Source of the DNA: Barnesiella sp. An55
GTDB taxonomy: Bacteria; Bacteroidota; Bacteroidia; Bacteroidales; Barnesiellaceae
Direction: 5' to 3'
Length of the DNA: 64,000 nucleotides
NCBI RefSeq assembly: GCF_002161555.1
Contig: NZ_NFHZ01000015.1
Location: forward strand, 1-64,000
Shown here: positions 41,429 to 45,666 of the stretch, one piece after another
Layout: each line of letters starts with the position of its first letter
Position numbering within the stretch: the first letter of the stretch is position 1
Notes under the pieces: model-generated
Databases searched by the model: none
What the model was told of the DNA's origin: nothing
The model's input: the letters and a program-made list of their open reading frames with translations, nothing else
Made by a program: the position numbers and the translations under genes

Positions 41429-42526
41429 TTACAGTTTGTAGATGCCGCCCGGAAGAGCCTTGACCACCCCCTTGAATTCCAGTTCGACCAGTACCGACAG
41501 CAGTTGCGACAGGGGTCGGTCCAACTCGACGGTCATGCGGTTTATCTGTCCTTCGCCCTTCGCCTTGAGATAGTCCACCAGGGTCTGTTCTTCGTCGGTA
41601 AGATCGGGGAAGAGCGAGCGTTGCACCGCCTCGCGCCGGGGCGCGTTCCAGCACATGGCCTCGACGAGATCGTCGGCCGAGGTGATGAGGGCTGCCCGGT
41701 TGCGACGGATGAGGTGGTTGCAGCCTGCCGAACTCTCGCGCTGTATGTCGCCCGGCAAGGCAAAGACATCGCGGTGATAGCTCTCGGCAATCCCTGCGGT
41801 GATAAGGGCTCCACCCTTTTCGCGCGACTCGACAATGACTACGGCGTCGGCCAGTCCCGCCACTATGCGGTTACGGGCTACGAAAAAGGCCGGATGCATG
41901 GCATGATAGCCTGGATACTCGGTAATCAAGCCTCCGTGAGTCACCATCTCAATAGCGGTGTTGCGGTGACTCGACGGGTAAATGTGGTCGAGCCCGTGAG
42001 CCAATACACCCACCGTGTCGAGTCCCTGTTTCAAGGCTGCACGGTGTGTACAGATGTCAATGCCGTAAGCCAGTCCGCTCACGATAACAAGTTGGGGAAA
42101 GTAATCGGCCAAGTCACGAATCATCGCTTCACAGAAACTGCGGCCGTAGTCGGTAGCCCGGCGTGTGCCCACCACACTTATCACCTTGGCCTCATTCAGA
42201 TTGGCCGTGCCCCGGTAGTAGAGCAGAACAGGTGCATCGACACACTCGGTCAGCCGGTGAGGATAAGTCGGGTCGGTAAAGTAGAGAGGTACGATGTTTC
42301 CCTTCTGGATAAACTCCATCTCCTGTCGGGCCGCTTGCAATGCCGTGCGGCGGGCTTCGTCATGGAGAATACGCCCCGTGATACCCGTCATTTCCTGCAA
42401 CTGCGATTCGGGCAACTCGAAGAAAAGCTCGAGTTCTCCCACTGTGTCGTGGATGTGCTGGGCCAGCGACTTGTTCATCCCCTTGATGCGGGAGAGCGCA
42501 ATGCGATATACAATCTCGGGTTCCAT
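41429..42526 (-). CDS. dprA: DNA-processing protein DprA
   Basis: A 365-residue protein that loads RecA on incoming single-stranded DNA during transformation. N-terminal helix-hairpin-helix-like region (1-65), Rossmann core with VISVVGTRRATDYG, IVSGLAYGIDICTH and FFVARNRIVAGLADAVVIVE, and a C-terminal winged-helix (about 305-365). The Rossmann signatures are complete. The upstream thioesterase gene is 21 nt away on the same strand. Confidence 0.95.
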   Translation of the reverse strand: MEPEIVYRIALSRIKGMNKSLAQHIHDTVGELELFFELPESQLQEMTGITGRILHDEARRTALQAARQEMEFIQKGNIVPLYFTDPTYPHRLTECVDAPVLLYYRGTANLNEAKVISVVGTRRATDYGRSFCEAMIRDLADYFPQLVIVSGLAYGIDICTHRAALKQGLDTVGVLAHGLDHIYPSSHRNTAIEMVTHGGLITEYPGYHAMHPAFFVARNRIVAGLADAVVIVESREKGGALITAGIAESYHRDVFALPGDIQRESSAGCNHLIRRNRAALITSADDLVEAMCWNAPRREAVQRSLFPDLTDEEQTLVDYLKAKGEGQINRMTVELDRPLSQLLSVLVELEFKGVVKALPGGIYKL

Positions 42527-42547
42527 GAAACGGGTTGGAGATAGGAT

Positions 42548-42949
42548 TTATTGTATGAATTGCTCGAAGTAGGGAACAAACTCCTCGCCACGGGTGATGC
42601 GCCCTTGTGTGGTACACACCGTCTCGACCACAGCCTTGATACATAGTTCGCCCGATACCTTGTAAATATCCTGATAAAAGACAAACTTGATGCCCTCGCG
42701 GCGCATATAGAGCTTGCACACAAAGCGGTCGCGGCTGCGTAGCGGCGCCTTGTAGTTGATTTCCATGCGGTTCACCACCGGGTCGATGCCCCGTTCGCGC
42801 ATCTCGACAAACGAGATACCTGCAGCAGCCAGAAATTCGTGGCGGGTATGTTCGAGATAATGCAGGTAGTTGGCGTTGTTGACGATGCCTTCCATATCGC
42901 ACTCGTAGTCGCGCACCTGCATCTCCAGTTCAAAAATATATTGCGACAT
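42548..42949 (-). CDS. Hotdog-fold acyl-CoA thioesterase (4HBT family)
   Basis: A 133-residue YbgC/FadM-like thioesterase. The conserved start FELEMQVRDYECDMEGIVNNANYLHYLEH carries the active-site Asp (YECDMEG, where the usual Gly-His-Val is Gly-Ile-Val) and Asn-Asn. The rest is the hotdog beta sheet (MEINYKAPLRSRDRF). Substrate acyl-CoA unknown. The ATG at 42949 is preferred over one nine codons upstream, since MSQYIFELEM starts directly at the first strand. Confidence 0.88.
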   Translation of the reverse strand: MSQYIFELEMQVRDYECDMEGIVNNANYLHYLEHTRHEFLAAAGISFVEMRERGIDPVVNRMEINYKAPLRSRDRFVCKLYMRREGIKFVFYQDIYKVSGELCIKAVVETVCTTQGRITRGEEFVPYFEQFIQ

Positions 42950-43425
42950 AGTCTTTCGGTTATTTATCATTTGCAAACTTACATAAAAAACGAAGAATTT
43001 TCCCTAAATCAGAGTGCCTTTTGTTATCGCAGGGGAAGAGTCTTGAAATAAATATTTTCTTGAGGGGAATAATGATTCTGTTGCAGGCTGTTTGGTAGAA
43101 ACGATCCCCTGTATATGTGCGATTTTAGAATTTTACGGGAGTCAGTTCTTCTCGAGAGTAAAAAAGGGCCCGATATTTTTTTTATAAAAGTGCGTTCATA
43201 AAAAAAAAGTTATTATTTTTGAAATAATAAAATTGAATTGATACTGAGAATTGTGCCATTTTGGACTCGGGAATCAGTTTGATGGAATAAAAATTAGTAT
43301 GGGGACGAAGCAAATAATCAATGCATAGGGGGCAGGATAGAGAAGTGTAATGCTATACTATTCTCTATGTCATGATATTTGTTTACTTATTAAAAGGGAT
43401 ATTAAACAATAACTAATATTGAAGT
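42950..43425. other. AT-rich intergenic region before the GYF-CD225 gene
   Basis: 476 nt with no gene on either strand, clearly AT-richer than the flanks. A -7-like TATTTTTG at 43214-43221 sits inside an A/T hairpin (TTATTATTT / AAATAATAA). From it the leader would be about 200 nt. I see no riboswitch-type fold or known RNA. The composition change marks the left edge of the accessory-looking segment. Confidence 0.5.
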
Positions 43426-43911
43426 ATGGAATACTATTTTTACTTGAATGATCGTAATGAGCAGCAAGGACCTATTTCGGCCGATCAGCTGGCTTCACGT
43501 GGTGTGACTCTCAATACGAAGGTGTGGAAACAGGGTATGTCTCAGTGGCAATCGGTCAGTGAAATTCCTGAATTGGTAGCATTGTTTGAACAACAGCAAA
43601 GAGGGGCAACACCCCCGCCTCCTCCTCCAGCTTTTGATACGGTACCTCCGACTCCAAGACCGCAGCCAGTACCCTCAAAACCCGATAATTTGTTGGTCTG
43701 GTCTATTTTGACTACGGTCCTTTGTTGTCTCCCGTTGGGTATTGTGGCTATTGTTTATTCAAGTAAAGTAGATTCTCTGTGGACCGAGGGTAAATATGAA
43801 GAAGCCAGAAAAGCGGCCGAAAGTGCTAAAATCTATTGCCTTGTTTCTTTGGGATTGGGTATCATAGGTGGTATCATAGGATTCCTGGCCGGATTTTTGA
43901 GCGCATTATAA
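43426..43911 (+). CDS. GYF-CD225 (dispanin/IFITM-like) membrane protein
   Basis: A 161-residue protein with three parts. Residues 1-55 form a GYF_2/DUF4339 domain (EYYFYLNDRNEQQGPISADQL, KVWKQGMSQWQSV) that should bind Pro-rich peptides. Residues 62-86 are a Pro-rich linker. Residues 88-161 are a CD225 domain with two membrane segments; LCCLPLGIVAIVYSSKV carries the double Cys (100-101) that is palmitoylated in animal IFITM proteins. The loop WTEGKYEEARKAAESAK is typical. The DUF2752 gene starts 3 nt after its stop, so the two are coupled. Function in bacteria is not established. Confidence 0.9.
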   Translation: MEYYFYLNDRNEQQGPISADQLASRGVTLNTKVWKQGMSQWQSVSEIPELVALFEQQQRGATPPPPPPAFDTVPPTPRPQPVPSKPDNLLVWSILTTVLCCLPLGIVAIVYSSKVDSLWTEGKYEEARKAAESAKIYCLVSLGLGIIGGIIGFLAGFLSAL

Positions 43912-43914
43912 CCG

Positions 43915-44289
43915 ATGAAGAAGGCAATTGTCTTGCTGGTAATTTTGTGTGGACTCGGGATTTACTTTATGATAGATCCCGAGTCTGTCTCGTTTATGCC
44001 TCGTTGTGTATTTCATTGGTGCACTGGATTGGACTGCCCGGCGTGTGGCACGCAGCGTGCCATGCACCAGTTGCTCCATGGTCATTTGCGTGAGGCTTTT
44101 GCCTATAATCCTTTTTTGCTGATCTCTCTCCCTTATCTGGGAGGTCTGATCTTATGCCGCTGGTTCAATAACAAAGGATGGTTTGATGGGCTGAAGAGAG
44201 TCTGTTATCATCCCGTAATGGTTAATATTTATCTGATTCTACTGGTAGCTTGGTGGATTGGACGGAATATTTGGTTGCACAACGGGTAA
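43915..44289 (+). CDS. DUF2752 membrane protein
   Basis: A 124-residue protein with three membrane segments (about 3-20, 66-82, 102-118). Between the first two lies the family block TGLDCPACGTQRAMHQLLHG, with Cys41 and Cys44 as a CxxC pair, plus Cys31 and Cys36 just before it and AFAYNPFLL after. This could bind metal or form disulphides. DUF2752 genes often sit beside CD225 or TM2-type genes in Bacteroidetes, as here with a 3-nt gap. Function unknown. Confidence 0.9.
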   Translation: MKKAIVLLVILCGLGIYFMIDPESVSFMPRCVFHWCTGLDCPACGTQRAMHQLLHGHLREAFAYNPFLLISLPYLGGLILCRWFNNKGWFDGLKRVCYHPVMVNIYLILLVAWWIGRNIWLHNG

Positions 44290-44437
44290 TGACTTGAAAA
44301 CTATTTCTACTGGGAGGATACTGCTGGATAAAGCTCTTTCGAGTTTTAGAAATCGGGTATAATTTTTTTTGATGTGGATAGCCGGGGCATGGTGCGCTAA
44401 TTTGTGCGTGTCGGGTAGTTGTTTCATGGATTTTTCC

Positions 44438-44445
44438 TAAGTTTG
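44438..44445 (+). promoter_or_regulatory. -7 box upstream of the C45-type hydrolase
   Basis: TAAGTTTG matches TAnnTTTG, 15 nt before the ATG at 44461; a TTG at 44419-44421 lies 16 nt upstream. The leader would be only about 10 nt. Confidence 0.45.
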
Positions 44446-44460
44446 TAAAAAATCAAGGTT

Positions 44461-45666
44461 ATGTATAAGCGGTTGTCACTTCTCTTACTCTTGTGTGTGG
44501 TGGCCGGGGTATCGGCTTGGGCCTGTACGTCGGCCGTGGTTTCGGGTCGGGTGACCCCCGACGGGCGTCCACTCCTGTGGAAGCATCGTGACGCCTCGGA
44601 CCTCAACAACCGCATCGTGCGCTTCGATGCCGTCAAGGGGCAATTCTCTTTCGTGGGAGTGGTCAACGGTACCGACACGCTGGCCCGCGAGGTGTGGACC
44701 GGCTACAACAGCGAGGGGTTTGCCGTGATGAATACGGCTTCGTATAACCTCAAGAGCGATACCTCGTCGCTGGCCGACCGCGAGGGGATAGTGATGAAGC
44801 GGGCTTTGGGTTGCTGTCGCACGGTCGATGACTTTGCCCGACTGCTCGACGAGTGGCCCCGGCCTATCGGGGTAGAGGCCAACTTCGGGGTAATCGATGC
44901 CGAGGGCGGTGCCGCCTATTTCGAGGTGAACAATTATGAGGTGACTCGCTACGACGTAGCCGATAGTCCCGATGGCTATCTGTTGCGCACCAACTACTCG
45001 ATGTCGGGCCGCACCGATGAGGGATTCGGTTATATCCGTTACGACAATGCTGCCCGCCTTTTTGCTCCTGTGGCTGCTCAAAAAGCCATTACGGCCGAGT
45101 GGCTGACGGGCGTCTGCTCCCGTTCGTTTTATCACGATTTCCTGGACCGGGACTTCTCGGGCGACCATTGGGTAGTCGATCAGGATTTCATTCCTCGATA
45201 CAGCACTTCGGCATCGTTGGTGGTCGAGGGGGTAAAGCCCGGGGAGTCGCCGCTGTTCACCACCATGTGGACGGTGTTGGGTTATCCGCCCTGTTCGGTG
45301 GTATTGCCGGTGTGGCTTGGTTGCAACAGCGGGGTGCCTGCTCTGTTGCAGGCCAGCGATGGCACGTTGCGTTCGCCTCTGTGCGAGTGGTCCAATGCGT
45401 TGAAGCACGAGGCTTTCCCCGTTGTGCGTGGCAGCGGGTCGCACTATCTGCACATGGCACGTCTCTTCCGTCCCGACGGTAGCGGTATTACCCAACAGCT
45501 GCTCAATCTCGAGAAGAAGGTCTATGCTCAAAGCCGAGCGCTGCTCGATGAGGCCCGCCACTCCGGCTTGTGGAACGACCGGCGGGTAGAGAAGACGTTG
45601 AGTGACATTCAAGAAGAGGTATCTCAAACGTTCTCTCGAATATTGAAGCAAACCCATGAAAAATAA
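44461..45666 (+). CDS. C45-type Ntn-hydrolase (acyltransferase/amidase-like), secreted
   Basis: A 401-residue protein with a signal peptide MYKRLSLLLLLCVVAGVSAWA directly before Cys22. The sequence CTSAVVSGRVTPDGRPLLWKHRD is that of the N-terminal nucleophile in C45/linear-amide Ntn hydrolases (isopenicillin N acyltransferase and bile-salt hydrolase relatives). EGFAVMNTASYN (about 88-100) and ANFGVIDAEGGAAYFEVNNY follow the fold's second and third core blocks. Signal-peptide cleavage after Ala21 would itself expose the nucleophile. WAC could also be read as a lipobox, but Trp at -2 fits poorly. Substrate unknown; an amide or acylated amino acid is possible. Confidence 0.8.
   Translation: MYKRLSLLLLLCVVAGVSAWACTSAVVSGRVTPDGRPLLWKHRDASDLNNRIVRFDAVKGQFSFVGVVNGTDTLAREVWTGYNSEGFAVMNTASYNLKSDTSSLADREGIVMKRALGCCRTVDDFARLLDEWPRPIGVEANFGVIDAEGGAAYFEVNNYEVTRYDVADSPDGYLLRTNYSMSGRTDEGFGYIRYDNAARLFAPVAAQKAITAEWLTGVCSRSFYHDFLDRDFSGDHWVVDQDFIPRYSTSASLVVEGVKPGESPLFTTMWTVLGYPPCSVVLPVWLGCNSGVPALLQASDGTLRSPLCEWSNALKHEAFPVVRGSGSHYLHMARLFRPDGSGITQQLLNLEKKVYAQSRALLDEARHSGLWNDRRVEKTLSDIQEEVSQTFSRILKQTHEK

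Follow-up and report, generated by a model that had tools for sequence, protein, structure and literature searches.

Why are a CD225 (IFITM-like) protein and a DUF2752 membrane protein encoded side by side in Barnesiella sp. An55, and what might the two do together? Many bacteria carry IFITM-like proteins, which have been proposed as the source of the animal IFITMs and whose function was described as unstudied in 2015 (PMC4488726). The pair considered here lies in a stretch of 64,000 nucleotides (contig NZ_NFHZ01000015.1, positions 1 to 64,000 of the forward strand; hereafter the window) and comprises the following features.

43426 to 43911, + strand: gene 1, 161 aa, with a GYF_2 domain, a Pro-rich linker and a CD225 (dispanin) domain (ORF, Pfam)
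43441 to 43575, + strand: GYF_2 domain, residues 6–50 (Pfam E 6.5e-15; fold matches GYF domains including that of GltJ, 7z3c)
43606 to 43683, + strand: Pro-rich linker, about residues 61–86 (translation read directly)
43678 to 43878, + strand: CD225 domain, residues 85–151 (Pfam PF04505, E 1.1e-25)
43723 to 43728, + strand: CC motif, C100-C101 (translation; partner survey)
43915 to 44289, + strand: gene 2, DUF2752 membrane protein, 124 aa, three predicted TM helices (ORF, Pfam; model pLDDT 89)
44005 to 44148, + strand: DUF2752 domain, residues 31–78 (Pfam PF10825, E 1.9e-19)
44005 to 44049, + strand: cysteine site C31-x9-C41-P-A-C44-G45, predicted to face outwards (invariance in homologues, positive-inside count)

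The two genes share a strand and are separated by 3 nt (CCG, 43912–43914), and a single reading frame is common to both, with only TAA CCG between them. A preliminary description of this DNA had given the same gene layout, domains and gap, which ORFs and Pfam matches bear out to the base. No strong promoter was found 5′ of gene 1, the only site seen there being TAnnTTTG-like, at 43214. The pair had been described as lacking an assigned function, in keeping with a search of the open literature (most subscription journals and preprints lying outside it) in which no paper naming DUF2752 or PF10825 was found.

The CD225 domain of gene 1 scores 90 bits against a curated cut-off of 27.1 and thereby belongs to the CD225/dispanin profile. 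Among the motifs described for dispanins (CC, A-x6-A and G-D; PMC3282796), the CC motif in the first hydrophobic segment (C100-C101) and the A-x6-A of the intracellular loop (EEARKAAESAK) are present, and the G-D loop motif is absent (GKYEEA). A G-D-like pattern occurs in 44 of 72 CD225 partners of DUF2752 that were examined; G-D is a common dispanin motif and no strict requirement, and the profile match of gene 1 is unaffected by its absence. The GYF fold was confirmed by structural comparison (Foldseek probability 0.99–1.00 to GYF structures; VIA-align Z 4–6), with the GYF domain of GltJ (7z3c) as the nearest bacterial structure. In translation the linker contains PPPPPP plus additional prolines. 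Gene 1 also matches chain 9zks of SynDIG4/PRRT1 in sequence (E 6.2e-5).

Gene 2 scores 69.9 bits against the DUF2752 cut-off of 27, which makes it a member of that family, and it carries the three invariant cysteines of DUF2752 (C-x9-CPxCG). C31, C41, C44 and G45 are invariant among 32 diverse profile-selected homologues and P42 and R48 nearly so, a figure less biased than the conservation seen in the CD225-type DUF2752 alignment (A6), which arises partly by construction. AlphaFold2 predicted three long helices and a helical cysteine loop (pLDDT 89, pTM 0.66), and the CxxC block that the preliminary description had placed between TM1 and TM2 is indeed found there, C41-P-A-C44 lying between model helices 2–19 and 66–85. 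Comparison with solved structures yielded no informative relative (best Foldseek E, 9.7; best VIA-align Z, 3.4 over 4 chains), which is no proof of a new fold. Mean K+R counts in DUF2752 are 2.0 in the N terminus, 3.5 in the 45-residue cysteine loop, 4.0 in the 15-residue loop 2 and 1.0 in the C terminus, with a net charge of +3.9 for loop 2; on the basis of these charge counts, the N terminus and loop 2 are predicted to lie inside and the cysteine loop outside. A CPxC with a helix after it resembles thiol-redox motifs; CPxCG is reminiscent of zinc knuckles. The three-cysteine site is most likely either a metal site or a thiol switch, two readings between which sequence alone cannot decide.

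The adjacency of CD225 and DUF2752 is far beyond chance. Among 393 genomes of the order, DUF2752 was present in 225 and CD225 in 40; in 36 of these 40, DUF2752 lay downstream of CD225 on the same strand, its match starting 123–337 nt past the end of the CD225 match, and the adjacent DUF2752 was missing in the other 4. Chance adjacency, on a generous estimate, amounts to about 1.5e-4 per genome and CD225 copy. DUF2752 was found anywhere in the genome in 39/40 CD225 genomes versus 186/353 genomes without CD225 (Fisher p 2.4e-9). In the genus of the window, the window's genome has both families and the 8 congeners have neither, and among 296 genomes sampled across the phylum CD225 exceeded the cut-off in 4, the window's genome among them, with DUF2752 directly downstream in 4/4. 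A scan with the CD225-type DUF2752 alignment, one genome per species, returned 80 loci, all Bacteroidota by their titles and, as a set, biased to DUF2752 of the CPGCGSQR type. CD225 was directly upstream in 71 of these 80 loci from other species at a median gap of 6 nt, and the gap fell between −20 and +30 nt in 49 of the 71 pairs (start codons chosen mechanically). The CD225 and DUF2752 distance matrices correlated with r 0.72 (maximum 0.16 in 500 shuffles), a correlation confounded by shared species ancestry, which contributes to it.

Further arrangements were seen at individual loci. Nonomuraea gerenzanensis (Actinomycetota) has DUF4190, CD225 and DUF2752 in a row. A human gut contig (L220, MT839860.1) carries a CD225-DUF2752 pair followed by pyrF-, pyrK- and pyrD-like genes, a gene order that suggests a Bacillota origin; this contig is one of two records labeled “Bacteriophage sp.”, both of which proved to carry bacterial genes, and it looks like a piece of a bacterial genome. 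Tandem CD225 genes (2–3 copies, often one with and one without GYF) stand beside a single DUF2752 at L105, L106, L109, L093, L094, L097 and L132. In a fifth genome of the phylum-wide sample, G659, a weak CD225 match containing three stop codons (L104), with DUF2752 elsewhere in the same genome, probably represents a decayed copy, to judge from those stop codons.

Neighbor clustering returned no recurrent third gene by the pair, only GYF/CD225 paralogues and apparent local synteny. Throughout Bacteroidota and in other phyla, CD225 and DUF2752 are conserved as a closely spaced gene pair, and, since the genes almost always adjoin, their products very probably act together. The preliminary description had proposed a coupled membrane module of two genes, with an adjacency survey set beforehand as the test that could refute it; the outcome is strongly favorable to that proposal.

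The pair had also been placed in an AT-rich pocket between backbone genes. The pocket is real, with a GC content of 40.8% for 42977–44460 as compared to 52.4% for the window, and congener comparison delimits it as follows.

42995 to 43006, + strand: left boundary GAATTTTCCCTA, equal to the empty-site sequence in congener G004 (congener comparison)
43007 to 44429, no strand: about 1.42 kb of inserted DNA, by comparison with the empty site in G004 (blastn)
44428 to 44439, + strand: right boundary GGATTTTTCCTA, a degenerate copy of the left and not above chance by itself (congener comparison)

In blastn, G004 matches window positions 42408–43006 and then directly 44430–44700. Thioesterase and C45-like acyltransferase/hydrolase genes flank the pair, and the AT-rich pocket is explained by insertion, because five of the eight congeners have these flanking genes together with no cargo (spacing of 66 bp in G004, 165 in G008, 203 in G002, 248 in G005 and 412 in G006). 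At the same site, G001 carries a gene for a WG-repeat protein (L213:949–2634) with an exact 14-bp flanking repeat, and G003 carries a 5.8-kb block (L214) with two ABC transporters, a methyltransferase and a regulator-like gene; the two flanks are on different contigs in G007. The sequence GAATTTTCCCTA flanks the G001 insert as an exact repeat and the window insert as an imperfect one. A defined mobile element was considered as the inserter and rejected, the window boundary repeat being degenerate and, taken alone, no better than chance; no recombinase was seen in the window insert, nor any gene besides the pair. The simplest reading of these alignments is that the pair was gained at a variable site, with loss from a filled ancestor as another possible history.

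A patchy distribution and an AT-rich insert at a variable site, together with the antiviral role of animal homologues, would suit anti-phage defense, in which the pair would block phage DNA entry or fusion in parallel to IFITM. This idea, offered as speculative in the preliminary description, appears quite improbable. Neither protein matches any PADLOC model (E up to 1) or any PHROG family, the neighbors are housekeeping genes, among which a DprA match to ShosA is generic, the cargo found at the same site elsewhere consists of the WG-repeat protein and the ABC-transporter block, and the viral contig collection contained no confirmed relative of the pair. No link to phage defense was found, and such a function, neither shown nor favored, is still speculation.

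The GYF domain is optional, and the constant unit is the two-helix protein plus DUF2752. Among the 72 CD225 partners, GYF is present in at least 43 by a simple pattern (with a few more recognized by eye), a zinc ribbon takes its place in 3, and 17 are nearly devoid of an N-terminal domain, with DUF2752 retained; the CC motif is kept in 71. At L154 (2008–3258), one gene joins a Ser/Thr protein kinase (Pkinase E 1.4e-38) to CD225 (E 6.4e-18); a GYF-CD225 gene and then DUF2752 come next. As kinase domains are expected to be cytosolic, this fusion places the CD225 N terminus inside. These observations bear on the possibility, raised in the preliminary description, that GYF domains bind the Pro-rich linkers of neighboring copies and build polymers, self-assembly then being the function. 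The GYF fold is confirmed, a Pro-rich linker is present and tandem CD225 genes occur in several loci, all compatible with polymers, but many partners without GYF still keep DUF2752. Because the N-terminal domains are interchangeable (absent or nearly so, zinc ribbon or, once, kinase), polymer formation through GYF and linker is disfavored as a general principle and an adaptor role is favored; GYF self-recognition is thus not supported as the organizing principle, and we consider it very improbable as the function of the pair.

CD225 is itself replaceable. At 20 Bacteroidales DUF2752 loci with no adjacent CD225 match, the neighbors were mostly TM2 proteins or CCC motif/DUF4190/MpPF26 proteins. 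By local profiles, among which those for CD225 and CCC cross-match, a CD225, CCC or TM2 gene lay within 600 nt on the same strand in 30/30 top-scoring loci of the order, in 17 of these 20 loci and in 19/29 loci of the phylum sample; the remaining 10/29 phylum loci, with no tested partner within 600 nt, imply that DUF2752 can function by itself or alongside different partners. In profile comparison CD225 is related to CCC (hhalign 85% probability, E 6e-6), and no similarity was detectable between TM2 and CD225. Since CD225, CCC/DUF4190 or TM2 may each take the partner's place, it is DUF2752 that stays constant and the two-helix protein that varies. The pairing itself, as put forward in the preliminary description, is real and more general than stated there, and the name GYF-CD225 is too narrow, because TM2 and CCC/DUF4190 proteins are partners of DUF2752 as well. 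Among loci of other kinds, L079 and L080 have DUF2752 with no two-helix partner, the YitT and PAP2 matches in the neighbor set pointing to its two flanking genes, and at L117, L119, L131, L142 and L147 (Muribaculaceae-type) DUF2752 stands by a large multi-helix MATE-transporter-like gene with no CD225 nearby.

Two further explanations were considered. The pair could be a membrane-shaping or lipid-ordering unit, in which CD225 would oligomerize and stiffen or bend the membrane as IFITM3 does, with DUF2752 assisting or tuning it. Consistent with this, the CD225 domain bears the CC motif, nearly always kept as noted above; IFITMs from mycobacteria restrict influenza virus in human cells (PMC4488726); and the GxxxG motif that drives IFITM3 multimerization, according to one report (PMC13386968), has a counterpart in the second helix of gene 1, read directly from sequence. 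Membrane shaping leaves unexplained, however, why DUF2752 should be the constant member and why TM2, with no detectable CD225 similarity, should occupy the same place, and we regard it as unlikely. Somewhat less probable still is a role in envelope quality control, the two-helix protein and DUF2752 being either a substrate of membrane proteolysis or a regulatory subunit in it. This explanation draws on four Bacteroidales loci (L068, L069, L073 and L075) in which genes for TM2, DUF2752, DUF4870 and an M48 peptidase follow one another, DUF4870 and M48 being fused in L075; yet no M48 gene was prominent by CD225-type pairs in neighbor clustering, and none lies beside the window pair.

To model the pair, gene 1 and gene 2 were predicted as one linked chain with TAA read as glycine, using 21 in-frame paired rows (the window and 20 others) and 68 unpaired rows. 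The domains were predicted with confidence (mean pLDDT 85.6) and their arrangement was not (pTM 0.54), so that no interface is readable; the two-residue linker may hinder docking. In this model the CD225 part of gene 1 forms helices at 90–100, 103–120 and 124–160, compatible with the architecture of SynDIG4/PRRT1, which in native AMPA receptors has a re-entrant H1a-H1b and a TM helix H2, with H2 touching receptor helices and the protein binding CNIH (PMC13262616).

We tentatively propose, with somewhat less than even confidence, that the pair forms a small inner-membrane complex in which a DUF2752 core with an outward three-cysteine site is joined by CD225 as an adaptor to cytosolic domains that can be exchanged; the existence of the complex, its ligand and its output are inferred. 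The two genes would encode two subunits of this complex, with DUF2752 as the core embedded in the membrane and CD225 (or, at other loci, CCC/DUF4190 or TM2) as a re-entrant-helix-plus-TM adaptor that would dock on DUF2752 within the bilayer. The analogy is with a mammalian CD225 protein, SynDIG4/PRRT1, which docks on TM helices of the AMPA receptor and its subunit CNIH. The GYF domain would recruit a cytosolic protein via a proline-rich peptide. The C-x9-C-P-x-C-G site would most likely bind metal or act as a thiol/disulfide switch, and it is because of this putative site in DUF2752 that the chemical state outside is proposed to be coupled to the cytosolic adaptor.

A near-constant DUF2752 partner offers a direct entry point to the role of IFITM-like proteins in bacteria, and DUF2752, which roughly every second Bacteroidota genome in the samples carries, gains a common context with small two-helix adaptors. 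A broader idea, which we judge unlikely, is that the ancestral job of CD225 (IFITM) was that of adaptor subunit of a DUF2752 membrane sensor, in a two-subunit signaling module running from an outward metal/redox site through an exchangeable adaptor to a GYF domain, zinc ribbon or kinase.

Among known systems, gene 1 resembles the bacterial dispanins (CD225, PF04505) in its above-cut-off CD225 domain, CC motif and A-x6-A, and differs from that family in its N-terminal GYF domain and in having G-K where the family has G-D. Bacterial dispanins in several phyla were already described, by sequence, in the family-defining paper (PMC3282796), the text of which contains no word beginning with “DUF” and no mention of a DUF2752 partner. 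The CCC motif membrane proteins (NF040945)/DUF4190/MpPF26 occupy the place of CD225 by DUF2752 and have profile kinship to it, but are families separate from CD225, gene 1 scoring 18.9 bits against the NF040945 cut-off of 65. TM2 proteins (PF05154) are likewise small two-helix proteins that adjoin DUF2752, sometimes with zinc ribbons, and have no detectable similarity to CD225. GltJ of Myxococcus (7z3c), a bacterial motility protein, provides a structural match to the GYF domain of gene 1, whereas the full-length GltJ model is unmatched by gene 1 (9.7 versus 450 bits) and no gliding genes were seen by the pair. To animal IFITM3 and PRRT1/SynDIG4, gene 1 is akin in its domain, by profile and sequence, and in its two-helix arrangement, and it differs from them in having GYF where they have an N-terminal region of their own. 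Animal CD225 proteins are not known to have a DUF2752 partner. SynDIG4 is an auxiliary subunit that touches the TM helices of its partner (PMC13262616), a behavior reminiscent of the adaptor role proposed here for gene 1.
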